Of a stretch of DNA of 64,000 nt, positions 27,430 to 45,110 are shown in pieces. The translations under genes and the position numbers were made by a program. The stretch's first letter is position 1; each line of letters opens with the position of its first letter. Origin of the DNA: Zoogloea oleivorans (GTDB taxonomy: Bacteria; Pseudomonadota; Gammaproteobacteria; Burkholderiales; Rhodocyclaceae); the NCBI RefSeq assembly GCF_008107625.1, contig NZ_SDKK01000010.1, positions 124,001 through 188,000 on the forward strand, in the 5' to 3' direction. The notes under the pieces were generated by a model. It did not search any database. It was not told the DNA's origin and worked only from the letters and a program-made list of their open reading frames with translations.

Positions 27430-27740
27430 ACGACAGTCAGCTCCAGCCCCTCGATGCAACCCTGCCCGGCACCGTCCTGGCCGCACCGGTCACCGACGCC
27501 AACGGCGCCGTCCTGCTGCCGGCCGGGCTGGCGCTCACCGAGGCCCATCTGGACAGCCTGCGCCGGCGCGGCATCGAAAACCTCACGGTGGTACTGGCGA
27601 TTGATGCGGAGGAACTGGCCCGACGGCGTGAAAAGCTGCGTCTGCGCATCATGCACCTGTTCCGGCACACCGCCGAAGACCCGGGCTCCCAGGCCCTCCT
27701 GCACGCGATTCTGGCCTTCCGCGAGGGGCAAATGAAATGA
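27426..27740 (+). CDS. Small protein related to the accessory domain of HD-GYP proteins
   Basis: A 104-residue soluble protein. Residues 12-50 carry the pattern PGTVLAAPVTDANGAVLL followed by PAGLALTEAHL and a RRRGI turn. The C-terminal half is a helical, basic segment (EELARRREKLRLRIMHLF). The same pattern, PGMVLARDLVTRDGVMLL, closes the REC-HD-GYP protein encoded three genes downstream, so this looks like that accessory domain as a free-standing protein. It overlaps both neighbours by ATGA (27426-27429 and 27737-27740), so its translation is coupled on both sides and it is surely expressed with them. Its function is unknown; a regulator or partner of the HD-GYP or HDOD protein is plausible. 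Confidence 0.8.
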   Translation: MNDSQLQPLDATLPGTVLAAPVTDANGAVLLPAGLALTEAHLDSLRRRGIENLTVVLAIDAEELARRREKLRLRIMHLFRHTAEDPGSQALLHAILAFREGQMK

Positions 27741-28576
27741 CGCCCCCCAGCCTTTCCGAGATGATCGGGCGCATCCACGGACTACCGGTCATGCCGGCGG
27801 TAGCCCTCGAAGTCCTCGACTCAATGGCCGGCGCCGACACCGACATCAAGGACCTCGCCCGGCGCATCACCCAGGATCAGGCGATTGCCGCCCGCGTGCT
27901 GCGCGTTGCCAACTCGCCCCTCTACGGCCTGCAAATGCGCGTCGCATCGATCCACGACGCCATCGTGGTGCTCGGTTTCTCGGCGGTCCGCTCCCTGGTG
28001 CTGGCGGCGGCGATTGTCACCAGCCTGCCCGCCGGCCGCTGCCCCGGCTTCAACCAGGAGCGCTTCTGGCGCCACGTGCTGGGCACTGCAGTCGCTGCCC
28101 AGGCCCTCGCCAAACCGCTCAAGCGCTCCCCGGAGCCCCTCTTCATCGCCGGCCTGCTGCATGACATTGGACGACTTGTGATGGTGGCGCTGTATCCCGA
28201 GCATTACACCCGCGTGCTCGACCAGGTCGGCGAGCAGGATTGCTGCCTGCGAGACGCCGAACAAACCGTATTCGGCTTCGATCACGCCGCCGTCGGTGCG
28301 GCGCTCGCCGGGCGCTGGAACTTTCCTGCCGACATCGTCGATGCACTGGCCTGGCACCACGAGCCTGAACGCGGCACCCCCGACGGGATGGCCGCCGTCA
28401 TTCACTACGCCGACGCCATCTCGCAGGCCCTCGATCTGGATGGAGCCGAAAACGGCCAGATGCCCCGACTGCACCAGAAAACCATCGACGGCCTCGGCCT
28501 CGACTGGCAAAAACTGACGGAAGTTCTTGCCGACACCGAGGCACGCTTCAACAGCTACCAGCTGATGCTCGGATGA
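27737..28576 (+). CDS. HDOD-domain protein
   Basis: A 279-residue cytoplasmic protein almost entirely made of an HDOD domain, an HD-related fold usually without the full catalytic set. Family sequence includes IHGLPVMPAVALEVL at the start, ITQDQAIAARVLRVANSPLYG, LGFSAVRSLVLA, and LFIAGLLHDIGRLVMV, followed by WHHEPE near residue 215. HDOD proteins commonly act in two-component and c-di-GMP pathways as scaffolds or regulators. It is coupled to the small protein upstream by ATGA and stands 4 bases before the histidine kinase gene, so the kinase and HDOD protein are made together. Confidence 0.9.
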   Translation: MTPPSLSEMIGRIHGLPVMPAVALEVLDSMAGADTDIKDLARRITQDQAIAARVLRVANSPLYGLQMRVASIHDAIVVLGFSAVRSLVLAAAIVTSLPAGRCPGFNQERFWRHVLGTAVAAQALAKPLKRSPEPLFIAGLLHDIGRLVMVALYPEHYTRVLDQVGEQDCCLRDAEQTVFGFDHAAVGAALAGRWNFPADIVDALAWHHEPERGTPDGMAAVIHYADAISQALDLDGAENGQMPRLHQKTIDGLGLDWQKLTEVLADTEARFNSYQLMLG

Positions 28577-28580
28577 TTCG

Positions 28581-30386
28581 ATGAATCTTTCTCCCTATTC
28601 CATTTCCGGCACCCTGTTCCCCCTCGCGGAATCCCTCAGCTCAGGCATCCTGCTGCACCGGGGCGACAGTATCCTGTTTGCCAACAAGGCCATGTCGCGG
28701 CTCACTGGCTTCACCGCGGAAGAGCTGTCGGGCAAACCGTTCTGGGCCTTCTTCCCTCCCCCGGTGTGCAACACCATCCGCGACCGGGGCCGCAACCGGC
28801 TCAAGGGTGAGCATCCGGCGGCACGCTACGAAACCGTCATCATTACCAAATCCGGAGAAGAGCGCTGGGTCGAACTGGCGGTCTCCCAGGAAGACATCGA
28901 GGGTGAACGGGCCGTCGTGTGCAGCTTCATCGACATCACCGAGCGCAAGCGCGCCGAAGCGGCCCAGAAACAGACCCAGCAACTGCTGACCCAGATCATC
29001 GACGGCGATCCGGTGCCAACCTTCGTCATCAACGCCAAACGCGTCATCACCCACTGGAACCAGGCCTGCGAACAGGTCATCGGCATGAGCGCCGCCGACC
29101 TGATCGGCACCACCAAACAGTGGTCGGCTTTTTACAACACCGAGCGGCCGATCATGGCCGACCTGATCGTGTCCGGAGAGATCGAAAATCTGCTGCGACT
29201 CTACGGCGACAAGAAGCTGCGCCGCTCGCCGGTCATCGACGGCGCCTACGAGGCCGAGGACTTCTTCCCCCAGATGGGCGAGCACGGCCGCTGGCTGTAC
29301 TTCACCGCGGCCCCGCTGCGCAACGCACTGGGCGAAGTGATCGGCGCCATCGAAACCCTGCAGGACATCACCGAACGCAAGAACGCCGAAACCGAACTGC
29401 TGCGCATGCAGGCCGACCTGGAGGCGACGGTAGCGATACGCACCGAGCAACTCCTGCAGGCCAAGACCACCCTGGAAGAGGATATCGCCCGCAGGGAAAC
29501 CGCCGAAGAGGAACTCCTCAAACGCTACGCCGAACTCACCGAACTCAACTGCCTGCTGCAGGAAGCCCAGCAACAACTGGTGCAGTCCGAAAAAATGGCC
29601 TCCATCGGCCAGCTCGCCGCCGGCGTCGCCCACGAGATCAACAACCCCATCGGCTACGTAAACTCCAACATCCGCAGCCTGAAGGGCTACGTGGGGCAGA
29701 TCCTCGAACTGCTCGACACCTATGAAGCCCGCGAAGCCGCCCTGCCCGCCGAAGACCTGACCGCAATCAAGGCCGCCAAGAAGGCCGCCGACTTTGAATT
29801 CCTGCGCGAAGACATCGGCCAGCTCCTCAGCGAATCCGAGGAAGGCACCGAGCGGGTACGCAAGATCGTCCAGGACCTGCGCGACTTCTCACGGGCCGAA
29901 ACCACCCAGAACTGGCAGGCCGTGGATCTCCGTCACGGGCTCGACAGCACCCTCAACATCGCCAGCAATGAAGTCAAGTACAAGGCCGATGTGGTCCGCG
30001 AATACACCGACATCCCGATGGTCGAGTGCCTGCCGTCCCAACTCAACCAGGTTTTCATGAATCTCTTCGTCAACGCGGCCCAGGCCATGCCGGACAATCG
30101 CCGTGGCACCATCACCGTACGCACCGGCCTGGCCGGCGAAGAAGTGTGGATCGAGGTGGCAGACAACGGAGCCGGCATTCCCGCCGCCATCCTGGACAAG
30201 GTTTTCGACCCCTTCTTCACCACCAAACCGGTCGGCAAGGGCACGGGTCTCGGCCTGTCCCTGTCCTACGGCATCATACAAAAACACAACGGACGCATCA
30301 GCGTCAGCAGCACGCCTGGGGTGGGCACCACCTTCCGCATCACCCTGCCCATTCACCACCAGGCCCCTGTCGGAGCAACACCATGA
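28581..30386 (+). CDS. Soluble PAS-PAS sensor histidine kinase
   Basis: A 601-residue cytoplasmic histidine kinase with no transmembrane segments. Two PAS domains occupy about residues 15-130 and 140-270, the second containing an insert. A coiled coil ([20 protein letters not shown]) runs to the HisKA helix, where the acceptor histidine is in [13 protein letters not shown] near residue 350. The ATPase has the N box in [14 protein letters not shown], and the G boxes are DNGAGI and [10 protein letters not shown]. The most likely partners are the two RpfG-type receivers in the same operon, encoded upstream (25879) and downstream (30383). Its stop overlaps the downstream start by ATGA. The signal is presumably intracellular (redox, oxygen or a small ligand), but no cofactor-binding motif is evident. 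Confidence 0.9.
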
Positions 30387-31684
30387 CTCTTGCACCCCAC
30401 CCCCCCGAAGCCCCACCCTTCACCATCCTGTGTGTGGACGACGAAGCCAACATCCTCTCCGCCCTGCGCCGCCTGTTCCGCCCCCAGGGCTACAAGGTGC
30501 TGGTCGCCACCGGCGGCGAGGAAGGCCTCGAAACCCTGGCCCAGGAACATGTGGACCTGATCATCTCGGACATGCGCATGCCGGGCATGGACGGAGCGAC
30601 CTTCCTCGCCGCCGCCCGCCAACGCCATCCGGACACCGTACGCCTGCTCCTCACCGGCTACGCAGACATGGAATCGACCGTCGCCGCCATCAACGCCGGC
30701 CAGATCGCCCGCTACATCGCCAAGCCCTGGAACGACCAGGACGTGGTCCTGACCGTTCGCGAAGCCCTTGAACGCAAGGCCCTGGAAAGGGAAAAGGCGC
30801 GCCTGGAAATACTCACCCAGGCGCAGAACGAGGAGCTCAAGAACCTCAACGCCAGCCTCGAACAGAAAGTCGAAGCCCGCACCAGCGAACTCAAGATCGC
30901 CCACGAGAAGCTCAAGCAGCACTTCCTGACCTCGATCCGGGTCTTTTCCAACCTCATCGAGCTGCGCGAAGGCGTCATCTCGGGGCATTCCAAACGGGTC
31001 GCCGACCTGGCCCGCAAGCTTGCCGTCAAGCTCAACTTCCCGGCCGCCGAAGTGCAGGACGTGATGCTCGCCGGCCTGCTTCACGACGTAGGCAAGATCG
31101 GGCTGTCCGACGATCTCATCAGCAAGCCGGTGTCCCACATGAGCGGCGACGAACTGGGCCTGCTGCGCAAGCATCCGGTCACCGGCCAGGCCGCCCTGAT
31201 GGGCATCGAGAACCTGCGCAAGGCCGGCACCTTCATCCGCGGTCACCATGAACGCTGGGACGGTCAGGGTTACCCGGACCGGACCTCCGGCCTGGCAATT
31301 CCGTTCGGGGCCCGCATCATTGCCGTAGCCAACGACTTCGATGGGCTGCAGATCGGCTCCCATTCACCGCGCAAGCTGAAGCCGGACGAAGCCATCGCCT
31401 TCATCCAGCAGAACCGCGGCAAGCGCTATTGCCCGCAGGTCGTGGATGCCCTGATAGACGTGCTCGGCGCCAGCGAAGCGGTGAGCACCACCACCAACGA
31501 AGTCAACCCGGCCGCCCTCAAGCCGGGCATGGTGCTCGCCCGCGATCTGGTGACCCGCGACGGGGTCATGCTACTGGCCGCCGATTTCGTGCTCGACGAG
31601 AGCCTGATCCGTCAGTTGCGGGAGCTGGAAGCCTCGGAAGGCACCCGCCTGGTCATCGCGATCCGTCCGGAACGCAAGCCCTGA
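30383..31684 (+). CDS. Response regulator with HD-GYP domain and C-terminal accessory domain
   Basis: A 433-residue RpfG-like protein. REC is at about residues 12-130, with the acceptor in IISDMRMPGMDG and the end YIAKPWNDQD. A long coiled coil runs from about 130 to 175, then HD-GYP from about 180 to 350. The HD is in LLHDVGKIGLSDD near 234 and the GYP is in HHERWDGQGYPD. One conserved metal ligand differs: the family's VAD aspartate is Asn 317 here (AVANDFDGL). The C-terminal 60 residues (PGMVLARDLVTRDGVMLL...) match the free-standing small protein of the same operon. Expected role: c-di-GMP hydrolysis or binding under control of the adjacent kinase. It ends 9 bases from the convergent EAL gene. 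Confidence 0.88.
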   Translation: MTLAPHPPEAPPFTILCVDDEANILSALRRLFRPQGYKVLVATGGEEGLETLAQEHVDLIISDMRMPGMDGATFLAAARQRHPDTVRLLLTGYADMESTVAAINAGQIARYIAKPWNDQDVVLTVREALERKALEREKARLEILTQAQNEELKNLNASLEQKVEARTSELKIAHEKLKQHFLTSIRVFSNLIELREGVISGHSKRVADLARKLAVKLNFPAAEVQDVMLAGLLHDVGKIGLSDDLISKPVSHMSGDELGLLRKHPVTGQAALMGIENLRKAGTFIRGHHERWDGQGYPDRTSGLAIPFGARIIAVANDFDGLQIGSHSPRKLKPDEAIAFIQQNRGKRYCPQVVDALIDVLGASEAVSTTTNEVNPAALKPGMVLARDLVTRDGVMLLAADFVLDESLIRQLRELEASEGTRLVIAIRPERKP

Positions 31685-31693
31685 GGAGACGCA

Positions 31694-33868
31694 TCAGAAC
31701 GCCAGCTGAACGCCCCCGCGCCTCACCGCCGGCTGCACCGTGGCCGGCACGAAGGCCGGATTGTGCAGGGCAGCAGCCAGCATCGCAGAACTCATCGGCC
31801 GCGCGAACAGGAAGCCCTGGATAAGGTGGCAACCGCGCCGGCTCAGGGCCTCCAGCTGGGCGACCGTTTCGACGCCCTCAGCCACCACTTCCAGGCCCAG
31901 GCTGTGGGCCAGGCCGATCACCGCCTCCACGATGGCAATACCCTGCCCGTCATCCAGTTCATTGACGAAGGAACGGTCGATCTTCAGGGTGTCCACCGCC
32001 AGCCGGCGCAGGTAGGCCAGCGACGAATAGCCGGTGCCGAAGTCGTCCACTGCCACCCGCACGCCCATCTCGCGCAGTTGCGCAAGAATCACCGTCGCGT
32101 AGTCCAGATCACGCATCAGCACGGTTTCGGTCAGTTCGAACTCGATTCGCGAGGCCGGTATGCCCGCTTCGGCCAGCACGGCGCGAACGGTGGGAAGCAG
32201 CTGGGCATCCATGAAGTTCACGCCGGACAAGTTGATGCTGACCCGGAAATCATCCGGCAGATCATCGCCCAGCGCGGCAATATCGGCGCACACCTGCTCC
32301 ATGACACAGCGGCTGAGGGGCACGATCATCCCGGTCTCTTCCGCCAGCGAGATGAACTCCGGCGGCGGTATCGAGCCACGATCCATGTGGGACCAGCGCA
32401 CCAGCGCCTCGGCCTTGACGATGGCCCGCTGATTCACGTCGACGATGGGCTGATAGAGCACCTTGAGCTCATCGGCTCCGAGAGCCCGGCGCAAATCGCC
32501 TTCGAGGGTGAAGCGCAGGAAAGCCGCCACCTTCATTTCCTCGGAAAACAGGGCCACCGGATCGCCGTTGGTCCGCTTGGCCCGGTTGAGGGCGGTTTCG
32601 GCCGCCTTCAGCAAGGCATCGGCATCGGTGGCATGGTCCGGCATGACGGCCAGCCCGACCCGCGCCGACAGGGTGATGTCCTGCCCCGGCACACGGATTG
32701 GCGCCCGCACCACCTGCAGCAGCCTGTGTGCCAGGACCAGCATTTCCTCCACTGAGCCCACATCGCTCATCAGGATGCCGAATTCGTCGGCGGCCAGTCG
32801 TGCCACCTTGAAACGGGTTATCCCGCTCCCTCCTGCCGGCTCGGCGGGGGTACGGTCGCCCATTGCCTCGCGCAGGCGATGGGCAATCACCTGCAGCACC
32901 TGGTCGCCCCGCTCCGGCCCCAGGCTGTCGTTGATGCGGGCAAAACGGTCGATATCCACCACCATCACCGCACAGCGGCTGTCGTGGCGCAGGCTGCGGG
33001 AGGTGACACCGAGCAGGGTCTCCCGGAAAAACTCCCGGTTGGGCAGCCCGGTGAGGTGGTCGAAGTAAGCCAGCTGGCGAATCCGCCGCTGGGCGTCCAC
33101 CTGCTCGGTGATGTCCTGAACGCTGCCCTCCATGACCATGCCGGAGCAGCCCCGCTCGCCGCCGCCGTCCAGCGGCTCAACGGTCTCCAGGAGCGTCCGC
33201 ACGCTGCCATCGGGCCAGACAACCCGGTAGGTCAGCTGGAAGCCGGTCCCCTTGCGGGCGCCCTCCAGGGCCGCGGCCATCAAGGGACGGTCGGGCACAT
33301 AGACGTGCTCCAGCATCGCCGCCATGCCCTCGCCAAAACCGTCAGCACGCTGCCCGAACAGACGGTAATACTGGGCCGAACGCAGGACATGGTCTTCCTT
33401 GACAAACCACTCCCAGCTCCCCAGGCGAGCGATGCGCTGGGCATTGGAAAGACTCTCCTTGTTGCGGGTGAGCTCCTTCATGACCTCCGCCGAGCGCAGC
33501 ACGTAACGGATGCGAAAACGCAGCAGCGTCCAGTTGATCGGCTTGGAGATGAAGTCGGTGGCGCCCACATCGAAAGCCCGCTCGACCGAATCGCCATCGT
33601 CCAGGCCGGTGAGCATGATGATCGGGACCAGATGGCCGGTCTGGCGGGCCCGCAGCTGCTGACAAACCTCGAAACCGCTCAGGCCGGGCATCATCACGTC
33701 GAGCAGCACCAGATCCGGCGGCGCCGCATCGAACAGGGCCAGCGCCTGCTCGCCGTCCTCCGCTTCGCGAATGGTGAATCCGCCCTCGCGCAGCGCCTCC
33801 GTCGCCATCATGCGGGTCAGGGGGTCGTCATCCACGACCAGGACATGCGGGCTATTGCTTACAGTCAT
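31694..33868 (-). CDS. Response regulator REC-PAS-GGDEF-EAL (probable c-di-GMP phosphodiesterase)
   Basis: A 724-residue cytoplasmic output protein. REC is at about residues 8-130 with the acceptor in [13 protein letters not shown] near 54. A PAS domain follows at about 150-270 ([12 protein letters not shown]). The GGDEF domain has its signature changed to AADEF ([10 protein letters not shown], near 358), so cyclase activity is unlikely. The EAL domain from about 465 keeps [35 protein letters not shown] and VVAEGVET, so phosphodiesterase activity is likely. The start at 33868 follows from an ATGA overlap with the upstream kinase gene. It is the last gene of the TonB receptor-YfiR-kinase operon and its natural output. 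Confidence 0.9.
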
Positions 33869-36633
33869 CGTTGCATTGGGCTTTCCACCCCTTCCAGTAC
33901 GTCCACACTCACCAAGTTTTCCTTCAGGAGAACTGCCACGCAGGCGTCCCAAGCTTCGACGATACCGTTCACATCGTCGATCGTCGGCATGGCGCCCCCC
34001 TTGATCCGCTCATCCAGCCGGCGCGCCCGCAAGGCCAGCCGCACCGCACCGACCGCCAGGCAGCCGGACTTCATCTTGTGGGCCAGCGCCCGTACGGCCG
34101 GCGCATCACCGGCGGCCACTCCGGCACGCAAACCCTGCACATTGCGCTCGGTTTCTCCGACAAACAGCGGCAGCAAACGTTGCAGCATGGGCGAGGCCCG
34201 GTTGCCATTGACCCCCGGCAACGCCATCAGCAAATCGAGATCCATCGCTGGCTCAAGCGGGACGGACGGAGTGGCGACTTCCGCCGCCGGTGGGGGTGCC
34301 ACGCAGCCCCCGTCGGGATCGGATGGCAGAGCCTCGCGCAACCAGCGGCTGAGCACCGCCCACAACTGTTCGCGGGATACCGGCTTGACCAGGTAATCAT
34401 CCATGCCGGCAGCCAGGCAGGCGTCCCGGTCTTCCTTGAGGGCATTGGCAGTAAGGGCGACGATGGGCATGCGCGGCAATCCCCGCTCCGCTTCATCGGC
34501 GCGGATGGCGAGAGTCGCCTGGCGACCATCCATCTCCGGCATCTGGATGTCCATCAGAATCAGGCCGAAATGACCTTCGCGACAAGCCTCCAGCGCCTTG
34601 CGTCCATCTTCGGCCACCGACACCCGGCAACCGAGGGATTCGAGCACGGCAGTGACCACCTCCCGGTTCACCGGGTGATCCTCAACGACCAGCACATGCG
34701 CGGCAAGAGTGCTGCCTGCCGGATCCGGCGCCGTGGCAACGGTCAACTCGCTGAGCAGGAAACGGCGGATCTCCGAGCCGGTCAGCGGACGCGCCAGGAC
34801 CAGCTCCGCCCCCGCCCCCTGCACGCAGACCGCATCGTCTCGCCCGGCGCCGACGACCGCAGCAAGGAGCGGACGCTCCGGCCGCTCACGCAGGCTGGCC
34901 AGCAGTTCGAGGCCCGTACCGGCATCGAAGGACGGATCCACCACCACCCAGTCAAAGCCGGTGCCGACATCAAGCATTTCACTGACTGCCGGCCGATCGT
35001 AGGCCAGTTCGCTGCGACAGCCGAAGAAGGCCAGTTGTTCGACAAGGGCGTCACGCAGCAGCGGATCGCCAATGGCCAGCAGCGCGGCGCGCCCGGTCAG
35101 CGGCTGCTCGGCGGGGCCGTGCTGCGTATCGATGCCGAGCTCGAACTCGACCCAGAAACAGGAGCCACGCCCGGGCTCGGTGATGTAATCGATCTCGCCG
35201 CCCATCAGCTCGACCAGCTGCTTGGCGATGGACAGGCCCAGCCCGGTTCCGCCGAAGCGCCGGGCCATGGAGTTATCCGCCTGGGAGAAGGATTGAAACA
35301 GCCTCGCCCCGGCTCCCCGCGGCACCCCGATCCCGCTGTCGCGCACCTCTGCGCGCAGGCGCAGGCGCCCGCCGGAGACACACGGCACGCGGGTAATCAC
35401 GATGCTGATTTCACCCTTTTCAGTGAACTTCTGGGCATTCGACACCAGGTTGTTGAGCACCTGACGGACGCGCAGCGCATCGCCCACCACGTGGTCGGGC
35501 ACCCGGTGATCGACGTAGAGGCGCAGCAGCAGGCCGCGTTCATGGGCCGAAGTGGCAAACAGGGCGGCTACCTGATCCACCGTATCCCGCAGGGAAAAGG
35601 GCAGGACTTCGAGCTCAAGGCGCCCGGCCTCGATTTTCGATACGTCGAGCACGTCGTTGATGATCTCCATGAGGGCGCAAGCCGAGTTGTCCAGCATATC
35701 AACAAAGCGCCCCTGCCGCTCTGCCAGGGATGTCTGACGCAGCAGGCCGATCATTCCCAGAACCCCGTTCATCGGCGTGCGGATCTCGTGGCTCATGTTG
35801 GCGAGGAACTGGGACTTGGCCCGGCTGGCCGCTTCCGCCTGCTCCTTGGCGCCCTGCAACTCAGCGGTACGGACGGCCACCTCCGAGGCCAGATGCTCCC
35901 GATGAAGGGTCAGCTCCCGGTCGCGGGTGGCGATTTCGGCCAGCATGCCGTTGAAGCCGGCAATCAGCTCGCCGACCTCGTCCGCGTAGCCGGGCGGGGC
36001 GCGCAGGTCGTAGCGCTTGTGGGTGCCCACCTCGCGCACCACGCCGGCAAGCTGCTGCAGCGGTTCGACGATCATCCCCTGCATGCGCCGGGTAAACAGG
36101 GCTGCGGCAATCAAGGCCACCACCAGCCCGAGCAAGGCAAAGGCGACCCACAGGGCGATTCGTCCGATGACCGGCTTGAGATCGAATTCGAGGATCAGCT
36201 CGCCGAGCAACTCGCCGTCGCTGCGGAGAGGCTGATTCACCACCAGACAGAGCGGCTGCCAGTGGGTCGTCCCCTGCCCGGCAAGGATCCTGAGTGCCGA
36301 TACCCGTGCGGGCTGGCTGCGCAGGCTGGCCGGATAAGCGGCAAAGATCGTTCCGTCCGGACGAACCAGCACGGCAGCGGCCACCCGCTGGTGATAGCGC
36401 AGGGACGCCAGCAGACTGTCAGCCACCCGCGAGTCGTCGAAACGCAGCGGCGAGATGGCGCCGTCGGCAACGATCTCGGAGAGCACCCGGCCGTCCTCGT
36501 CGGCCCGCTGGATCTCGTTGCGCACCTCGGTCACGAAAATGGTCAGCAAGGCCACACCGAGGGCGATCAGCACACTACGCCGGACGATGATGCTGAGTTT
36601 GCGCCCGATGGGCAGATCTCTCAGGTTCTGCAT
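33865..36633 (-). CDS. Hybrid histidine kinase with CHASE8-like periplasmic domain, HAMP, two receivers and HPt
   Basis: BarA-like membrane phosphorelay kinase of 922 residues. Transmembrane helices lie at about 18-38 and 157-178. They enclose a small periplasmic domain with the CHASE8 pattern ([20 protein letters not shown], then [10 protein letters not shown]), the type found in the diguanylate cyclase YfiN. HAMP (about 180-232), HisKA ([11 protein letters not shown], histidine about 281) and HATPase ([10 protein letters not shown], about 456) follow. The first receiver at about 510-630 is degenerate. The second has its aspartate in [13 protein letters not shown] near 693, and an HPt histidine is in [10 protein letters not shown] near 849. 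It starts 1 base after the yfiR-like stop and overlaps the EAL gene by ATGA. The obvious model is YfiR controlling this kinase through the CHASE8 domain. Confidence 0.9.
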
Positions 36634-36634
36634 C

Positions 36635-37177
36635 TCAAGGGCCTTTCATGCCGATGACGTTACGCCCGAGGCGCAACAATCGGGAACTGGCGCGCAGGCT
36701 GTCCCGCTGCAGCGAAGCCTGGTTGATGTCGAAACGCACTCGCTCGTCTTCGGTCACCAGGCCAATGCTCCCACCCGCCTCGGCAAAGCCGTCGATGTCG
36801 CTCACCGTAAGCACGCTGCGCAAGGCCAGACCGCGCAGGATAAGGCCCAGCCGGCGCTCCTCCGAATCCGACACGAAAACGATGTGGCACTCGGCCGCCA
36901 GCTCCACACTGTCCACCTGGCGCACACGCACCTCACGCCCACTCACCTGGCGCCCGTCCAGACCCGCCAGCACGCCCCCAAAGGGGTCACGGCCAAGGAT
37001 GCACAGACGGAGCGGCGCCCCGCTGGGCAGGCGCACGCCGGGCCACTCCACGTAACGGGCAAAATTGAGCAGGTAGGCGGCCTTGATCTGGTATTCACCA
37101 GGCGGCGGGGAAGCCCAGGCAAAGAACCCGCCAAGGCCAAGTACGCCCAGGATCGCAATCCGGTAAAGGCGACGCAT
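36635..37177 (-). CDS. YfiR family periplasmic protein
   Basis: A 180-residue secreted protein of the YfiR/HmsC-like family (DUF4154). A signal peptide is visible at residues 1-26 ([17 protein letters not shown]...AWA). The family core begins with [18 protein letters not shown] and continues with [20 protein letters not shown], and a C-terminal [16 protein letters not shown]-type segment. In Pseudomonas YfiR is a periplasmic repressor of the CHASE8 cyclase YfiN. Here no YfiN is present, but the next gene encodes a kinase with a similar periplasmic domain. A GAGGA site precedes ATG 37177, 13 bases after the TonB receptor stop. Cysteines are fewer than in Pseudomonas YfiR, so redox control of the same kind is not assured. 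Confidence 0.88.
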
Positions 37178-37190
37178 CACGCAAACATCC

Positions 37191-39215
37191 TCAGAAGCGC
37201 CAAACGCCCTGAACGTAAGCCCGCCGCGGCTGGTAGGCCGGCTGCCCGGGGAAGAAATTCGATACGTACTCCAGGTGCAGAGGATCAAAAAGATTCTGTC
37301 CGACCAGGGCCAGCTCGAAGGAGCGATTGACGCGCCAGCCATAGCGCAGGTCGACACTCGTGTAGGCCGGCACCCCGCCCTGCCCGATGGCCCCCATCCG
37401 GCGCAGCATCAGATCCAGCTCGCGGCCGCGGCCCAGGTTGACCAGCGTGTGCAGGCTCGCCCAGTGATGAGGGGCAGAGCCTTCGAGGATTCGCCCGTAA
37501 GCGTTGCGGACCGGGTCGGCGCTGCGCCGGGCCGCCGTATCCATCAGGGTATAACTCGCCTGCAGACGCAGATTGGCCGTCACGGGCAGGTCAAGGCCGA
37601 GCTCCAGCCCGGTGCTCCGGGCGGCACTCAGGTTGCCCCGATACATGGACTGGACGGGAGCGTAATAAGGCGCCACCGGAATCGGGATCACTCCCGGACC
37701 GATCGGTCCCGTGGTCTCGCTGATCAGGCGGCGATAGTCATGATGAAAGAGGACCGCCTCGAAGCTGCCGTTGCCCAGGTTGCGACGGTAGCCCAGCTCC
37801 AGCGCATCAAGCCGCTCGGCCCGCGGGCTCCAGCCAGCGCCCGGCTTCGACACCACCGCCACCGCCGGAAAAGGAGAGCCAGGCGGCGTCGGCTGGAGTC
37901 CGAACAAAATCGTGGCGTCCGACTCGCCGATCGACGGTGTCCGGGCAGCCCGCGACCAACTGGTCCACAGACTGTCCGCCAGCGTCGGCGTCCACATCAG
38001 CCTGGCCGTCGGCTGAGGCTCTAAACGCGAGGTGCTGGCATAGTCGAAACGCCCGCCCAGGGTGAGCCTCCAGGTTTGCGGCACCAGCGTAATCTCATCC
38101 TGCACAAAGGCGCTCATCACCCGGTATTCGCGGCGCGGCGGCAGAATGCTGAGCACTTCGGTGGTCGCCTGGATCTCGGTCTGTATGTAACGGCTCCCCA
38201 GCCCCCACATCACTTCGTGCCGCCCACTGGGCACCAGGCGATGCTGGAAGTCGAGATCGGCGGTATTGACCGTCCCCTTGCCGTAGGTAGCCACATTGGC
38301 CCACTGGTGATCGAGATAGACCTGCAACGATGCCTCGCCATCGGCCAGCCCCCAGTTGTAGCGCCCGGTCAGACTGGCCCCCTCGAACTCGAACTGGAGC
38401 GGCACCAGGCCGCCGTAGCCGCCCACTGCGGGGGTTTCGATGTTCTCGGTAGTGGTGCGACGATAACTGGCGCCCTGCAACATCCAGGCATCCACCCCGG
38501 AGCCGGCCCCGTCCATGCGAAAACCGGCCAGCCAGCCATGATTGCGGTCCCGCTCGGACTTGCCATCCACCGAACGGGAACGCTCCAGCTCACTGCCCTT
38601 GGCGTAGACACGCAATGCCCCGATCCCGTCCAGGTCGATCCCCTGGCGCACCGCCGTCACCGCCCGCCCCTGATCGTCCATACTTGCCGACACCAGGCTG
38701 TCACGGGTGGCCGTGGCCTTGCGGGTGACGATGTTGATCACCCCATTGACCGCGTTCGCCCCCCACAGGGACGCTCCCGGCCCGCGGATCACCTCGATGC
38801 GCTCCACATCCTCCAGCATCACGTCCAGAGCTTCCCAGAACACACCGGAGAAGAGCGGACTGTAGACGCTGCGGCCATCGATCTGCACCAGCAGCTTGTT
38901 GGCGAAGCGTCCCCCGAGGCCGCGCACGCTCACGGCCCAGCGCCCCCCGCCGATTTGCGCCACGTTCACACCTGGCACCTCGCGCAGGGCTTCCGGCACA
39001 CTGCGGGCCCCGCTGCGGCGGATATCCTCGGCAGACAGCACCGTCACCGCAGCCGGCGTCTCGGAGAGCTTCTGGGCCTTCCGGGACACGGCGGACACAT
39101 CAAGCCGAACCAGCTCTTCCAGCGTCAGATCGACCAGCGGCGGCTCAGCGGCACACACGGCGGCAGCCTGCCACAGGGCAGGAAGAAGAAGGCAGGCTCG
39201 ACGGGGATGCATCAT
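37191..39215 (-). CDS. TonB-dependent outer-membrane receptor
   Basis: A 674-residue receptor with a signal peptide (about residues 1-22), a plug domain and a 22-strand barrel. The plug is recognised from LSETPAAVTVLSAEDIRRSG, VPEALREVPGVNVAQI and the conserved VERIEVIRGPGASLWGANAV. The protein ends in Phe (GVWRF). A possible TonB box-like stretch follows the signal peptide (VDLTLEELVRLDV). The substrate is unknown; the plug resembles vitamin B12/siderophore-type receptors broadly. As first gene of an operon with YfiR, a CHASE8 kinase and an EAL protein, it may act as sensor as well as importer. Two adjacent start codons (39215 or 39212) cannot be separated. Confidence 0.93.
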   Translation of the reverse strand: MMHPRRACLLLPALWQAAAVCAAEPPLVDLTLEELVRLDVSAVSRKAQKLSETPAAVTVLSAEDIRRSGARSVPEALREVPGVNVAQIGGGRWAVSVRGLGGRFANKLLVQIDGRSVYSPLFSGVFWEALDVMLEDVERIEVIRGPGASLWGANAVNGVINIVTRKATATRDSLVSASMDDQGRAVTAVRQGIDLDGIGALRVYAKGSELERSRSVDGKSERDRNHGWLAGFRMDGAGSGVDAWMLQGASYRRTTTENIETPAVGGYGGLVPLQFEFEGASLTGRYNWGLADGEASLQVYLDHQWANVATYGKGTVNTADLDFQHRLVPSGRHEVMWGLGSRYIQTEIQATTEVLSILPPRREYRVMSAFVQDEITLVPQTWRLTLGGRFDYASTSRLEPQPTARLMWTPTLADSLWTSWSRAARTPSIGESDATILFGLQPTPPGSPFPAVAVVSKPGAGWSPRAERLDALELGYRRNLGNGSFEAVLFHHDYRRLISETTGPIGPGVIPIPVAPYYAPVQSMYRGNLSAARSTGLELGLDLPVTANLRLQASYTLMDTAARRSADPVRNAYGRILEGSAPHHWASLHTLVNLGRGRELDLMLRRMGAIGQGGVPAYTSVDLRYGWRVNRSFELALVGQNLFDPLHLEYVSNFFPGQPAYQPRRAYVQGVWRF

Positions 39216-39362
39216 CGATTCAAGGTACGGGAAGAGGATGAATGGCGGAACCGGGCCGGGAAGCCCATCCGGTAGCAGAAGCTCTTTTACCGAAACACTG
39301 CCCCAAGCGCCTACCTAACAATTGGCAGTATCGAAAAATTCGCAAAAAACCAGACCTTTAAA

Positions 39363-39378
39363 TGTGAAAAACATCACA
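39363..39378. promoter_or_regulatory. Perfect CRP/Vfr-type box between the TonB receptor operon and glnS
   Basis: TGTGAAAAACATCACA is an exact match to the CRP consensus TGTGA-N6-TCACA. It lies 148 bases upstream of the receptor start and 131 bases upstream of glnS. I find no convincing -10 at standard class I or II spacing on either strand. A TACAAT at 39446-39451 is a plausible -10 for glnS. The rest of the 294-base divergent region (39216-39509) shows nothing else I can name. Confidence 0.5.
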
Positions 39379-39509
39379 ACATCCATTACTGGCTTGCATG
39401 CCAACCGTTCGCTGGCGACAAATCTTCGGCAGCCCCGCCTTCGGCTACAATCCGGGGCTTTCCAGACTCCGGCGGCACCCAGCCCCACGCCCGTCAAGGT
39501 ACGATCCAG

Positions 39510-41231
39510 ATGACCGCTCCGACCTCCCTGCCCGAAGAAGCTGCACCCAGCAATTTCATCCGCAACCTCATTGACGAAGACCGACGCCTCGGCAAATGGG
39601 GCGGCCGCGTCGAAACCCGCTTCCCGCCCGAGCCGAACGGCTATCTGCACTATGGCCACGCCAAGAGCATCTGCCTGAATTTCGGTCTGGCGCAGATTTA
39701 CGGCGGCGCCTGTCACATGCGCTTCGACGACACCAATCCGACCAAGGAAGAGCAGGAATACGTCGACGCCATCATCGAGGCCGTGCAGTGGCTGGGCTTC
39801 GACTGGGGCCAGCACCTGTACTTTGCGTCGGACTACTTCGACAAGATGTACGCCATGGCCGAGCACCTGATCACGGTCGGCAAGGCCTACGTCGAATCCC
39901 TGTCGGCCGAGGAAATGCGCGCCTACCGCGGCACCCTGTCGGCGCCGGGCAAGGACAGCCCCTACCGCAACCGCAGCGTGACCGAGAACATCGAACTCTT
40001 CCAGCGCATGAAGGCCGGCGAATTTCCCGACGGCACACACATCCTGCGCGCGAAGATCGACATGGCCTCGCCCAACATCAACCTGCGCGACCCGGCCATC
40101 TACCGCATCCGCCACGCCACCCATCACCGCACCGGTGACCGCTGGTGCGTGTACCCGATGTACACCTTCGCGCACCCCATCGAGGACGCGCTCGAAGATG
40201 TCACCCATTCGGTGTGCACCCTCGAATTCGCCGACCAACGCCCGTTCTACGACTGGCTGCTCGACTCCCTCGCCGACGGCGGCTTCTTCTCCCGCCCGGT
40301 GCCGCGCCAGATCGAATTCGCCCGCCTCAACCTCACCTACGTGGTGCTCTCCAAACGCAAGCTGATCCAGCTCGTCGAAGAAAAGCACGTCGCCGGCTGG
40401 GACGACCCGCGCCTGCCGACCCTCGTCGGGGCCCGTCGCCGCGGCTTCACGCCGGAAGGCTTCCGTCACTTCGCCGAGCGCATCGGCGTCTCGAAGGGCG
40501 ACTCGTGGATCGACATGAGCGTGCTCGAGGACTGCATGCGCGAGCACCTCAACGAAGCCGCCGAGCGCCGCGTCGCCGTACTCGACCCGGTCAAGCTGAT
40601 CATCACCAATTACCCCGAAGGCCACACCGAGCGCTGCCACGCCCCCAACCACCCGCTCCACCCCGAACTCGGCAAGCGCGAAATGCCCTTCGGCCGCGAA
40701 CTGTGGATCGAGCGCGAAGACTTCATGGAAACCCCGGTCAAGGGCTATCACCGCCTCTACCCGGGCAACATGGCGCGCCTGCGCTACGGTTTCGTGGTGA
40801 AGTGCACCGGCTGCGAGAAGGATGCCGACGGCAACATCACCGCCGTGCTGTGCGAATACCTGCCCGACTCCAAGTCCGGCACCCCGGGCGCCGACAACTA
40901 CAAGGTCAAGGGCAACCTGCACTGGGTTGCCGTGGCCCACGCCTACGCGGCCGAAGTGCGCCTCTACGACCGCCTGTTCTCCAGCGCCTACCCGGGCAAC
41001 CGTCGCGAAGGCGATCCGGAAGGCGTGGAGCGCGACTTCCTCGATGACATCAATCCAGGCAGCCTGCAGGTCATCACCGCCCAGCTCGAACCCGCCCTGC
41101 GGGCCGCCAGGGCAGAAGCGCGCTTCCAGTTCGAACGGCACGGCTACTTCGTGGCGGATCGCGTCGACTCCCGGGAGGGAGCCCCCGTGTTCAACCGCAC
41201 GGTCACCCTGCGCGACACCTGGAAGAAATAG
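39510..41231 (+). CDS. glnS: Glutaminyl-tRNA synthetase
   Basis: Class I synthetase of 573 residues that charges tRNA-Gln. The HIGH motif is in PPEPNGYLHYGHAKS at about residues 40-54 and the KMSKS equivalent is in TYVVLSKRKL in the middle. It is followed by the two-barrel anticodon-binding region characteristic of GlnRS. The presence of GlnRS means glutamine tRNA is charged directly. AAGG lies upstream of the start. The gene stands alone between the divergent TonB operon and the GGDEF-EAL operon and ends in a strong terminator. Confidence 0.97.
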   Translation: MTAPTSLPEEAAPSNFIRNLIDEDRRLGKWGGRVETRFPPEPNGYLHYGHAKSICLNFGLAQIYGGACHMRFDDTNPTKEEQEYVDAIIEAVQWLGFDWGQHLYFASDYFDKMYAMAEHLITVGKAYVESLSAEEMRAYRGTLSAPGKDSPYRNRSVTENIELFQRMKAGEFPDGTHILRAKIDMASPNINLRDPAIYRIRHATHHRTGDRWCVYPMYTFAHPIEDALEDVTHSVCTLEFADQRPFYDWLLDSLADGGFFSRPVPRQIEFARLNLTYVVLSKRKLIQLVEEKHVAGWDDPRLPTLVGARRRGFTPEGFRHFAERIGVSKGDSWIDMSVLEDCMREHLNEAAERRVAVLDPVKLIITNYPEGHTERCHAPNHPLHPELGKREMPFGRELWIEREDFMETPVKGYHRLYPGNMARLRYGFVVKCTGCEKDADGNITAVLCEYLPDSKSGTPGADNYKVKGNLHWVAVAHAYAAEVRLYDRLFSSAYPGNRREGDPEGVERDFLDDINPGSLQVITAQLEPALRAARAEARFQFERHGYFVADRVDSREGAPVFNRTVTLRDTWKK

Positions 41232-41252
41232 GCCTCATAGACGGTCAGCAAG

Positions 41253-41282
41253 GGGCGGCGATACAAATCGCCGCCCTTTTTT
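41253..41282 (+). terminator. Rho-independent terminator after glnS
   Basis: GGGCGGCGAT pairs with ATCGCCGCCC around an ACAA loop, followed by six T. Confidence 0.93.
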
Positions 41283-41453
41283 CACCAGCATCGCCCTTGC
41301 CGCAGCAGGCAAAGAAGGCCAGGACAACGCGGCTCACTCGTACGGGCTGGCGACAGATTACAATGGGATGCCGACGACCAGATCGTCATATCCATGCCGA
41401 CTGCCGACTAAAAATTTGCGCCCCCTTTCAGCGCGCCCGACCATCACAACTAC

Positions 41454-43904
41454 ATGCCGAGCAAGCTCTCGATCCGCGTTCGCCTCCTGCTGGCCAGCAC
41501 CGTAGTCCAGATTGTGATGCTCACCCTGCTGCTCACCAACAGCGGGCGCCTCATGAACGAGGCGACCACGGCCAGCCTGAACACGCTCATCGCCCAGAAT
41601 TCGGCCATTCTCAACGTGGTCACGGCCACCTTCGTGCCCCAGGGGCGCTACAAAGCCCTGCAGGACGCCCTCGGCGAGCTTCTCAACGAAACCAACGAAG
41701 GCCTGATCTACGTCCGCATCGTCGACAGCACCGGCCAGACCCGGGTCCGTGCCGGCCTGCCGGACATGACAACCCTGCCGCCACCAGACGATGCCTCGGC
41801 CCTCAACCTCGGCGCCGGCATCAACAACAACCTGATCCACATTCGCCGCCCGGTGCTTCTCGAACGCAACCAGGTGGGCTTCGTCCAGTTCGGCGTCTCG
41901 GTTGCCGCGCTCACCATCGCCAAGCAGCGCATTCTCAGCCAGGGCATTGCCATCGCCAGTGCCGAAGTACTGCTCACCCTGCTGCTGCTGAGCGCCGTCG
42001 GCTACCTCATGACGCGCAACCTCGGCCGCCTGCTGCGCGGCAGCCAGGCCATTGCCGCCGGCCAGCTCTCCCACCGCCTGCCCGAACACGGCCAGGACGA
42101 ACTCGCCCAGCTCTGCCAGCACTTCAACCGCATGGCCAGCGCCCTCCAGTCGCGCATCCAGGAACTCGAGACCACCGCCCACCAGCTCGCCAACAGCGAA
42201 GAACGCTACGCCCTCGCAACCCGCGCCGCCAACGACGGCCTGTGGGACTGGGATCTAGCCAACGACAAAACCTACTTTGCACCGCGCTTTGCCGAGATCC
42301 TCGGCCTGACGGCCGACACCTTTGCCGGCACCAGGGACACCCTCGTCACCTACCTCCATCCCGAAGACCGGGAGCCCTTCCGCCTGCGCATGATCGCCCA
42401 CCTGAAACGGGAATCCGCCCAGCTCATGGTCGAACACCGCATCCTGCATGCCGACGGCAGCTACCGCTGGATCCTGACCTGCGGCATGGCCGTCTTCGAC
42501 GCCAAGAGCGGGCGGGCCGTGCGCATGGCCGGCTCCATCAGCGACATCCACCTGCGCAAGCGGGCCGAAGACCAGCTCGTCCATGACGCCCTCCACGACG
42601 GCCTCACCGGCCTCGCCAACCGGGCGCTCTTCGTCGAACACCTGCAGAACACCCTGCGTCACGCCGATCGGGTCACCGGCAGCCTGTTTGCCGTGCTGCA
42701 CATCAACATTGAACGCTTCCACGTGGTCAACGACAGCCTCGGCTACTCCGCCGGTGACGACCTGCTGCGTCTCGTGGCGTCACGCATCCGCGCCCTGGCC
42801 CGCTCCGGCGACGTGGTCGGGCGCATCGGCGGTGACCAGTTCGCCGTACTGCTCGACGACATCACCGAGGCCAGCGAAGCGATCCGCTTCTCCGAAAACC
42901 TGCAGGTCCGACTCGCCGAAAACGCCGAACTCAACGGCCATTCCCTGTGCCCCAAGACCCGCATCGGCGTAGCCCTCGGCAGCGGTGGCTTCAACAACGC
43001 CGAAGACCTCATGCGCGACGCCGACAACGCCATGCACCGCTCCCGGAGCAGTGCCGACAACACCATCACCGTCTTCCAGTCGGCCATGCACCAGCAAGTC
43101 ATGCGCGACCTCCAGCTCGAATCCCAGCTGCGCACCGCCCTGCGGGATCACCAGCTGGTAGCCCACTTCCAGCCCATCGTCGACCTCAAAACCGGTCGTG
43201 CTACCGGCTTCGAGGCCCTCGTGCGGTGGCCCCAGGCCAGCTCGCGACGCATTGGCCCCGACGTATTCATTCCCCTCGCCGAATCCCTCGGTCTGGTCCA
43301 CGAACTCGGCATGCAGATGCTCGACCAGACCTGTGCCCGCCTGAAAGCATGGCGCGAGTGCGGTCTCGCCGACACCAACCTGTCGATCAGCGTCAACCTG
43401 TCACCCCGCCAGCTCATGCAGACAGACCTGGCCGATCAGGTCGTCGCCTGCATCGACCGCCACGGCCTGCCTCCCAGCGCCCTCAAGCTCGAAATCACCG
43501 AAGGCACCCTCGTCACGCGCAAGGAACTCGCCACCAGCCAGCTCGGCAAGCTGCGCGCCAAGGGTCTCAAGATACTCATCGATGACTTCGGCACCGGCTA
43601 CTCTTCCCTCAGCTACCTCCATTCCATACCCTGTGACACCATCAAGCTCGACGGCTCCTTCATCCGTGAAATCGAACGCGACACCCGCCTGCGCGCCATC
43701 GTCGGCGCAAGCATCCACCTGGCCCACGAACTGGGCATGAGCGTGGTGGCCGAATGCATTGAAACCCGGGCCCAGGCCGACTTGCTCCGGGAACTGAACT
43801 GCGATTTCGGGCAGGGCTACCTCTTCTCCCCCGCCGAACCGGCAGACCGGGTCGAAGAATGGCTTACCACCAACGCCAGCCAGCCCGAATGGAGCCACGC
43901 ATGA
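41454..43904 (+). CDS. Membrane sensor HAMP-PAS-GGDEF-EAL protein (probable phosphodiesterase)
   Basis: An 816-residue inner-membrane c-di-GMP protein. Helices at about 8-28 and 164-185 bracket a periplasmic sensor of about 130 residues. HAMP (about 187-238) and PAS (about 250-370) follow. The GGDEF domain has the signature GGDQF (RIGGDQFAVLL, about 457), losing the acidic fourth residue, so cyclase activity is doubtful. The EAL domain from about 560 has [37 protein letters not shown] and VVAECIET, which looks active. Its stop overlaps the beta-barrel gene by ATGA. A small periplasmic binding-like protein is encoded next, so the periplasmic sensor may read that protein. The 171 bases before it show no clear promoter. 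Confidence 0.9.
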   Translation: MPSKLSIRVRLLLASTVVQIVMLTLLLTNSGRLMNEATTASLNTLIAQNSAILNVVTATFVPQGRYKALQDALGELLNETNEGLIYVRIVDSTGQTRVRAGLPDMTTLPPPDDASALNLGAGINNNLIHIRRPVLLERNQVGFVQFGVSVAALTIAKQRILSQGIAIASAEVLLTLLLLSAVGYLMTRNLGRLLRGSQAIAAGQLSHRLPEHGQDELAQLCQHFNRMASALQSRIQELETTAHQLANSEERYALATRAANDGLWDWDLANDKTYFAPRFAEILGLTADTFAGTRDTLVTYLHPEDREPFRLRMIAHLKRESAQLMVEHRILHADGSYRWILTCGMAVFDAKSGRAVRMAGSISDIHLRKRAEDQLVHDALHDGLTGLANRALFVEHLQNTLRHADRVTGSLFAVLHINIERFHVVNDSLGYSAGDDLLRLVASRIRALARSGDVVGRIGGDQFAVLLDDITEASEAIRFSENLQVRLAENAELNGHSLCPKTRIGVALGSGGFNNAEDLMRDADNAMHRSRSSADNTITVFQSAMHQQVMRDLQLESQLRTALRDHQLVAHFQPIVDLKTGRATGFEALVRWPQASSRRIGPDVFIPLAESLGLVHELGMQMLDQTCARLKAWRECGLADTNLSISVNLSPRQLMQTDLADQVVACIDRHGLPPSALKLEITEGTLVTRKELATSQLGKLRAKGLKILIDDFGTGYSSLSYLHSIPCDTIKLDGSFIREIERDTRLRAIVGASIHLAHELGMSVVAECIETRAQADLLRELNCDFGQGYLFSPAEPADRVEEWLTTNASQPEWSHA

Positions 43905-45106
43905 GACGCATCGCCGCAACAGTCCTCGCCCTCGCTCTCGCCCTGCCTCCCGGCACAGCAACGGCGGCAGACTCCCCTTCCCCGTTCAGCCTGTCGGGCT
44001 TCGGCACCCTCAGCGCCGTCCGCACCGACAAGGACAACCGGATATTCCGCAGCAGCACCCTGCAGGACAGCGGTGCAGGCACCAGCGTCGACCTGTCCGT
44101 CGACTCCGTCCTGGGCCTGCAAGGCTCCTTCAAGTTCAGCGAATCCCTCGACCTGACAGTCCAGTCAGTCGTGCGCAAAGGCACCGCCGACAATTACTCG
44201 CCGCAAATCACCTGGAACTTCATCCGCTTCCTGGTGACCCCCGCGCTGGTGATTCGCGTCGGCCGCACGCGCGCCCCGTTCTTCATGTACTCCGACTCGC
44301 TGAATCTCAACTACACCATCCCCTGGGTACGCCCGCCGGTTGAAGTTTACAGCCTGAATCCCTTCTCCAATCTGGACGGAATCGACGCGCTTTACCGCCT
44401 CCCGCTGGGCAACATGGACCTGGAACTGCATGCCTACGGCGGCAAGAGCGACCTCAAGATCCGCGACGGCTCCGGCAAGCTGCAAGCCACCCGGGGCATC
44501 AGGGCCGCCGTGAGTACGTCCGGCCTGACCGCGCAGGTCGGGTTCGCAAAATCCAATCTCGCCCTGAACTGGGGAGGCTCTTTTTTCACCAGCCTGAGCA
44601 ACCAGCTTGAGGCCACAGGAAACGGGCACCTGCGAAATGAAATCTCCGGCTTCGACAGCAAGACCACCTTCATCTCGACCGGCTTTCAGTACGACAAGGA
44701 CAAGGTCCTGATCGTCGGCGAATACGCCATGCGGACCGTCGACCGCTACACCACCAGTTCGGTGGGCTGGTATCTGACCTCCGGCTACCGCTTCGGCCCG
44801 CTGACGCCTTACGTCACCTACGCCCGACAGGCCGAGGTCTCGACGGACATCTCCGCCACCACCGGCGTCCCCGGACTCGACAGTTCCATCGAGTTGTTCA
44901 ACGCACTCAGAAACAAGGCCCAGCGCAGCATCGCCGTTGGCCTGCGGTGGGACGCCGCCCGTCACATCGCCATCAAGACCCAGCTCGAACGCGTCCAGCC
45001 CGGGCCCCGCGGGCTTGGCATTTTTCTGTCGGACGACTTCCGCGACAATGCAAATCCCGGCGGACCGATACACGTCCTGACCCTCTCGACGGACTTCGTG
45101 TTCTAA
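43901..45106 (+). CDS. Outer-membrane beta-barrel (porin-like) protein
   Basis: A 401-residue secreted protein with a signal peptide ending around residue 22 (MRRIAATVLALALALPPGTATA). The mature part has alternating beta-strand character, begins FSLSGFGTLSAVRT, and ends in the Phe typical of outer-membrane barrels (LSTDFVF). Segments such as VRKGTADNYSPQITWNFIRF and IRVGRTRAPFFMYSDSLN resemble DcaP/phosphate-selective-type trimeric porins. I cannot state the substrate. The start overlaps the GGDEF-EAL stop by ATGA, so its synthesis is tied to the phosphodiesterase. It is followed 4 bases later by the small periplasmic protein gene. Confidence 0.8.
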   Translation: MRRIAATVLALALALPPGTATAADSPSPFSLSGFGTLSAVRTDKDNRIFRSSTLQDSGAGTSVDLSVDSVLGLQGSFKFSESLDLTVQSVVRKGTADNYSPQITWNFIRFLVTPALVIRVGRTRAPFFMYSDSLNLNYTIPWVRPPVEVYSLNPFSNLDGIDALYRLPLGNMDLELHAYGGKSDLKIRDGSGKLQATRGIRAAVSTSGLTAQVGFAKSNLALNWGGSFFTSLSNQLEATGNGHLRNEISGFDSKTTFISTGFQYDKDKVLIVGEYAMRTVDRYTTSSVGWYLTSGYRFGPLTPYVTYARQAEVSTDISATTGVPGLDSSIELFNALRNKAQRSIAVGLRWDAARHIAIKTQLERVQPGPRGLGIFLSDDFRDNANPGGPIHVLTLSTDFVF

Positions 45107-45110
45107 GCCG

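Follow-up and report, generated by a model that had tools for sequence, protein, structure and literature searches.

A TonB-dependent receptor, YfiR, a CHASE8 hybrid kinase and an EAL regulator in one operon of Zoogloea oleivorans: a candidate transmembrane route to c-di-GMP breakdown

Introduction

What sets a YfiR system in motion, and what does such a system govern once its CHASE8 partner is a histidine kinase? The nature of the activating signals is named as a central unanswered question for YfiR systems in Malone 2012 (PMC3375315; passages of this paper, and of PMC4655355, are the source for what is cited below). Both questions are raised by a four-gene operon of Zoogloea oleivorans, which lies in a stretch of 64,000 nucleotides (contig NZ_SDKK01000010.1, positions 124,001 to 188,000; this whole stretch is called the window, and its own positions are used throughout). 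The operon encodes, in order, a TonB-dependent receptor, a YfiR-like protein, a hybrid histidine kinase and a response regulator with an EAL domain, all co-directional on the minus strand. From the gene order, the domains, the intact phosphorelay and EAL residues, the changed GGDEF site, the conservation and the co-occurrence observed here, the operon is read, with somewhat more confidence than doubt, as a transmembrane cassette that would run from the receptor through YfiR, the CHASE8 kinase and a phosphorelay to the hydrolysis of cyclic di-GMP (c-di-GMP) by the EAL domain.

The operon and its proteins

37191-39215, minus strand: TonB-dependent receptor, 674 amino acids (reading frame, Pfam and NCBIfam profiles)
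39075-39146, minus strand: N-terminal tail of the receptor, residues 24-47, with the extra segment DLTLEELVRLD before the plug (end of the signal peptide judged by eye)
36635-37177, minus strand: YfiR-like periplasmic protein, 180 amino acids (reading frame, Pfam and NCBIfam profiles)
33865-36633, minus strand: unorthodox hybrid histidine kinase, 922 amino acids (reading frame, Pfam)
36190-36507, minus strand: CHASE8 periplasmic domain, kinase residues 43-148, including Phe65 (Pfam, 37.3 bits, cut-off 27)
31694-33868, minus strand: response regulator REC-PAS-GGDEF-EAL, 724 amino acids (reading frame, Pfam)

Receptor and YfiR genes are 13 nt apart, YfiR and kinase genes 1 nt, and the kinase and regulator genes overlap by ATGA, a layout that agrees with the original prediction made for this DNA; its range of 33865-39215 takes in three of the genes at their correct places but leaves the fourth (31694-33868) outside. 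Measured against genus orthologues (12 for the receptor, 14 for each of the other genes), the ratio of non-synonymous to synonymous change (pN/pS) is 0.13-0.47 across the four genes, which therefore evolve under constraint.

In the kinase, two transmembrane stretches (hydropathy scan) flank CHASE8, and HAMP, HisKA, HATPase, a degenerate REC, a second REC and Hpt follow (Pfam; the first REC was judged degenerate by eye, Arg taking the place of its conserved Lys). The profile match bears out the earlier assignment of the periplasmic segment to CHASE8, and the kinase domains that follow it confirm that a kinase stands here in place of the cyclase. Against NF053592 the protein scores 144.2 bits, below the cut-off of 194, over nearly the full model. 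The HisKA His and the second REC Asp are present in all 34 CHASE8 kinases of the genus-and-order set, the Hpt His in all that have an Hpt; the first REC is without its Asp in several. Much larger CHASE8 kinases (1733-1789 amino acids), each containing four Hpt domains and a final REC, adjoin YfiR at loci L016, L019 and L020.

The site of YfiR on YfiN was mapped to the motif AAVVF by Malone 2012 (PMC3375315). By our own profile, SPLRF of the window kinase aligns with AAVVF of E. coli DgcN, and Phe65 is the equivalent of the Phe in that motif. All 149 distinct CHASE8 domains collected have Phe65, and so do all 139 that remain at 90% identity; because the collecting profile was seeded from the window, the set may be biased towards this residue. 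The AlphaFold model of the domain (pLDDT, the confidence score, 93.9) matches PAS-like extracellular or periplasmic sensors, with WalK best and with CitA, the template used by Malone 2012 (PMC3375315), also listed; a sequence search up to E 10 found no solved CHASE8 structure. A false match to CHASE8 is ruled out by the score, the invariant Phe and the confident PAS-like model. Furthermore, the distances among YfiR proteins and among CHASE8 domains correlate (r 0.35 over 94 cassettes; the largest of 300 permutations gave 0.13).

The YfiR-like protein is recognized by Pfam YfiR/DUF4154 (153 bits, cut-off 24.9) and by NF053591 (132.7 bits, above the cut-off of 125), and falls below the cut-off of the model of YfiR proper, NF053586 (47.9 bits, cut-off 85). 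In the alignment its Cys59 and Cys97 correspond to C71 and C110 of YfiR, and its Phe149 to F162; the C145/C152 pair, which is essential for the folding of YfiR (PMC4655355), is missing. Other arrangements of YfiR occur as well. At L088, L089 and L091 a YfiR domain is fused through a long coiled coil and a transmembrane stretch to a histidine kinase that has no CHASE8, and L089 also holds an EAL regulator and a receptor. At L069, L078 and L083 YfiR comes right after a kinase of about 600 amino acids whose different, larger periplasmic region is unmatched by CHASE8, another possible partner of YfiR.

The output of the operon

The regulator has AADEF at its GGDEF site and intact EAL catalytic residues. 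Its genus orthologues share both features (AADEF in 16/16; EAL catalytic residues intact in 15 of the 15 complete proteins). Because the GGDEF site is changed and the EAL residues are intact, the output here is likely the breakdown of c-di-GMP. When paralogues are added, the 29 regulators of the genus carry AADEF (16), GGDEF (8) or DE(A/S)DF (5) at this site, and every one keeps the REC Asp. The EAL catalytic positions are intact in all 28 that are complete, with EVL standing for EAL in five, while in two of the 28 the DDFGTG loop has Ile for Thr. Among solved structures, the nearest relatives are of the GGDEF-EAL kind (PDB 4rnh, for example). Across the 20 class-and-own loci that have an EAL regulator, seven depart from GGDEF, and the EAL positions are changed at L081, both by approximate motif matching.

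At two loci, L061 and L126, the kinase and the regulator form one chain, CHASE8-HAMP-HisKA-HATPase-REC-REC-Hpt-REC-PAS-GGDEF-EAL, which argues that the separate kinase and regulator act together.

Conservation within and beyond the genus

The YfiR family is found in 19 of 23 genomes of the genus, that of the window included. In 16 of the 18 other genomes, the YfiR locus with the highest score belongs to the window's type; the remaining two, G373 and G382, have a single match each, of another type. The four genes stand in order at 12 of the 16 orthologous genus loci. The kinase is split over two frames in a draft genome (L192), and no receptor was detected at L194. Of 20 further YfiR loci read in the genus, 19 include a CHASE8 kinase in their run, and the other is cut off by a contig end. 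A second run of TonB-dependent receptor, YfiR and CHASE8 kinase is also present in the window's own genome.

Beyond the genus, the YfiR family occurs in 58 of 369 genomes of the class, as found with a search model that favours window-type YfiR over the Pseudomonas type. The class survey covered 88 stretches with 90 YfiR genes, after six of 96 YfiR places (partial matches) and L092 (a duplicate of part of the L011 contig) had been left out; some named loci coincide with unnamed ones (L109 with L189; L152 with L079), so that the sets are not fully independent. A CHASE8 gene lies in the co-directional run of 66 of the 90 YfiR genes, and in 47 of these 66 it encodes a kinase (14 simple, 32 hybrid and one in a single chain with the EAL regulator); the non-kinase CHASE8 genes comprise 15 CHASE8-GGDEF-EAL, three CHASE8-GGDEF and one truncated gene. 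A receptor lies in the run of 57 of the 90, which agrees with the original prediction in making it a frequent partner, and an EAL regulator in that of 20 (single chain counted); three are YfiR-kinase fusions. Of the class-and-own runs, 6 of 90 show the contiguous series of receptor, YfiR, kinase and EAL regulator; the figures are 4 of 60 for the named runs and 18 of 40 for the genus-and-order runs. Therefore, YfiR with a CHASE8 kinase is common, and the exact order of all four genes is less frequent beyond the genus. As this survey of genus loci and distant genomes established, more than one genome has the gene order, and chance juxtaposition is ruled out by its recurrence across genomes.

Two genomes, G323 (seven YfiR matches) and G032 (nine), hold several receptor-YfiR pairs, and CHASE8 lies beside three of seven and two of nine YfiR runs, respectively; several inputs may share one CHASE8 transducer in them.

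A receptor family tied to YfiR

The receptor consists of a plug and a barrel only, and the STN domain, the mark of FecA-type transducers, was not found in it (both Pfam, up to E 1). NF053590 is its best-matching family by far (553.2 bits, below the cut-off of 645), and its closest relative, at 59% identity, is encoded on a contig of Zoogloea ramigera NBRC 15342. Receptor relatives in the named records are labelled as many phyla; many are metagenome bins, whose labels may be wrong.

NF053590 was run over the 369 genomes of the class, with at most three candidates scored per genome, and its scores split cleanly into 46 strong places (418 bits or more) and 23 weak ones (257 bits or less). YfiR lies within 1 kb of 33 of the 46 strong receptors, in all cases on the same strand, and within 5 kb of 35; it lies within 1 kb of none of the 23 weak ones. 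Likewise, YfiR is present in 34 of 34 genomes with strong receptors, compared with 3 of 22 with weak ones and 58 of 369 overall (hypergeometric value 1e-32, which ignores relatedness). The alignment to the model begins at position 1-6 in the strong group (one at 14, near a contig end) and at 10-19 in the weak group (with one exception, G233, at 4). The part that the weak receptors miss is therefore the N-terminal segment. This segment is common to the YfiR-linked receptors, where it directly follows the signal peptide as judged by eye. It was found in none of the 10 readable sequences among the 14 other receptors of the window's own genome (four were not judged), and 33 of 39 receptor matches in the PDB align only from residue 39-52 of the window receptor onward. 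In their sequences, then, the YfiR-linked TonB-dependent receptors form a family of their own, marked by this additional N-terminal segment.

The same tie appears in the named set, where 77 of 82 receptors were counted and five without room for the segment were left out: segment and adjoining YfiR are both present in 48, the segment only in 12, YfiR only in three and neither in 14 (Fisher 4e-6). The pattern used for the segment missed clear variants, such as MSLDEL in the second cassette of the window's own genome (L005), and the 'segment only' tally includes some receptors, at L112, L133 and L146, whose locus does hold a YfiR at a greater distance. Where a segment-bearing receptor has no adjoining YfiR, YfiR was found elsewhere in 11 of 11 genomes searched (two of these receptors lack room); among 12 genomes with segment-less receptors YfiR was found in seven, in two of them weakly. 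The EVTSVSK part of the segment resembles known TonB boxes, which would make the LSLEEL part the added one. Solved structures were uninformative about the ligand, since the PDB matches involve the plug region and a wide variety of receptors.

Proposed mechanism and alternatives

In the scheme that we infer, from its physical contacts and phosphotransfer to the sign of regulation and the ligand, the TonB-dependent receptor would sense or import a compound at the outer membrane, and its periplasmic state would set the amount of free YfiR; the probable means is the extra N-terminal segment beside the plug. The receptor would thereby stand in for YfiB, which it may have replaced. YfiR would bind the membrane-distal face of CHASE8 around Phe65, a site predicted from alignment with the mapped motif, and would lock the kinase in one state. 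Once YfiR is withdrawn (or loaded), the kinase would change state, phosphate would pass along the route His - Asp - Hpt - REC of the co-encoded regulator, and the EAL domain of the regulator would then hydrolyse c-di-GMP.

Several observations weigh against this scheme. Within the class survey, the run lacks a receptor for 33 of the 90 YfiR genes and a CHASE8 gene for 24, and 13 of the 46 strong receptors have no YfiR within 1 kb. The correlation between receptor and YfiR distances is weak (r 0.18, within the range of the permutations), and between CHASE8 and receptor distances there is none (r 0.07); distance correlation thus failed as support for the receptor link. Over the 80% most divergent pairs, the correlation of YfiR and CHASE8 itself falls to 0.16, that of receptor and YfiR to 0.05 and that of CHASE8 and receptor to -0.01. 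The Phe149 position is Phe in merely 138 of 186 distinct YfiR sequences. At L189 (Z. ramigera) and L188, receptor, YfiR and regulator are kept, and the kinase is an Hpt remnant only. Finally, the EAL phosphodiesterase output that had been predicted is likely for the window, with its AADEF site and intact EAL residues, but the output is not always breakdown, since the EAL motifs look degenerate and GGDEF is intact at two of the 20 loci with an EAL regulator (L017 and L048). The original interpretation, in which the periplasmic switch of YfiR and CHASE8 controls a phosphorelay to an EAL protein below a receptor as possible sensor, is partly supported.

The Hpt remnant of L189 is also read as L109, 10575-11219, and this natural loss raises what then drives the regulator.

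YfiR might be a ligand carrier. The receptor would import a compound, and YfiR, as one lobe of a type I ligand-binding fold, would present it to CHASE8. LuxP presents its ligand to LuxQ in this manner. The genes are adjacent, YfiR is the sole periplasmic domain of the natural fusions with a coiled coil and a kinase (L088, L089 and L091), and it resembles the N-terminal lobe of an ABC-type ligand-binding domain (PMC4655355). However, YfiR is a single lobe, and Pseudomonas genetics make it a repressor that is relieved by YfiB (PMC3375315), so that we regard a carrier as unlikely. Nor is it probable that the receptor is regulated cargo, merely co-transcribed, while YfiR and the kinase sense envelope redox or stress through Cys59 and Cys97. 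The C71/C110 pair is redox sensitive in YfiR (PMC4655355), its equivalents are kept in many distinct sequences (C59 in 140/186, C97 in 161/185), and receptor distances track YfiR poorly; but the linked receptors are one family with an extra N-terminal segment, with YfiR in all 34 genomes that have them, and plain co-transcription needs neither. That the true partner of the kinase is encoded elsewhere and the EAL protein answers another kinase is very unlikely: an EAL regulator is in the run of only 16 of the 46 separate CHASE8 kinases at the 90 loci (14 simple, 32 hybrid) and two genus genomes lost the kinase and kept the regulator, but the ATGA overlap, the four-gene order at 12 of 16 orthologous loci and the single-chain fusions all stand against it.

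The relay from receptor to c-di-GMP breakdown could be extended, tentatively and with appreciable doubt, to a second class of TonB-dependent transducer, in which a periplasmic N-terminal segment of the type LSLEELMxxEVTSVSKK would dock YfiR directly and ligand capture or TonB pulling would set the state of an inner-membrane CHASE8 protein. The series of TonB-dependent receptor, YfiR and CHASE8, which occurs in records labelled as many phyla, would then serve generally as a relay between outer and inner membrane, and YfiBNR would be an offshoot that has YfiB in the receptor's place. The YfiR-tied receptor family offers a concrete sensor candidate and a short testable peptide, and, if the scheme is true, nutrient or metal receptors would directly tune the biofilm state through c-di-GMP breakdown. 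Zoogloea ramigera is known for its flocs in activated sludge.

Genomic neighbourhood

No YfiB-type OmpA domain was found by Pfam in the four genes and eight adjoining open reading frames (27737-45527). YfiB is taken to be absent only from the surroundings of the operon in the window, because a survey of 24 genomes gave OmpA-domain genes in all 24; among the matches listed, one gene of G025 is some 4.3 kb away from a YfiR, on the other strand. Rfam, searched at gathering scores for a riboswitch as a clue to the ligand, gave no match in the window, and promoter and terminator scans of the window gave scores not above those of shuffled sequence.

An HDOD gene, a PAS kinase and a REC-HD gene (27737-31684) are convergent with the operon, and a class I E/Q tRNA synthetase gene and a HAMP-PAS-GGDEF-EAL gene (41454-43904) lie beyond the receptor. 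The operon is thus surrounded by further c-di-GMP-type genes, and most of the 16 genus orthologues have like neighbours. The open frame of 928 amino acids opposite the kinase (33871-36657, plus strand) is probably an artefact of GC-rich codons.

Comparison with known systems

The operon resembles YfiBNR of Pseudomonas (yfiR-dgcN-yfiB in E. coli) in combining YfiR with a CHASE8-HAMP membrane protein, and its proteins have both the proposed docking Phe and the equivalent of Phe162 of YfiR. Unlike that system, its CHASE8 protein has kinase domains and no GGDEF, the EAL regulator is separate, a TonB-dependent receptor is encoded in the absence of YfiB, and the YfiR lacks the C145/C152 pair.

Unorthodox hybrid kinases of the BarA type share the order HAMP-HisKA-HATPase-REC-Hpt, and BarA is the best NCBIfam match of the window kinase. 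The score of 470 bits is far below the BarA cut-off of 890, however, and the window kinase has a CHASE8 input and an EAL regulator. FecA-FecR-FecI is a TonB-dependent transducer, and FecA-type systems are alike in that an outer-membrane receptor is proposed to signal inwards. The window receptor differs in lacking STN, its periplasmic partner is YfiR, and the output would be a phosphorelay to c-di-GMP.

Replacement of the YfiN output by histidine kinases has been known since Malone 2012, whose relatives of YfiNR have kinase, Hpt or GGDEF-EAL outputs and include a hybrid kinase of Thauera (PMC3375315). Those relatives likewise pair YfiR with a CHASE8 hybrid kinase, mostly without YfiB; the word TonB has no occurrence in the main text of that paper, although its Table S4 might list a receptor (PMC3375315). 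No paper on a system of receptor, YfiR and kinase was found in the open-access literature, judged by titles and the openings of abstracts. The NCBIfam models NF053590 (TOL_0244 receptor), NF053591 (TOL_0243 YfiR-like) and NF053592 (YfiR-associated kinase) describe the same three families as the window, but the receptor and kinase of the window fall below their cut-offs, and the three models include no regulator. Ultimately, since kinase outputs have been known since 2012 and models exist for receptor, YfiR and kinase, the coupling of YfiR to a kinase is already known and the link to the receptor is the new part.

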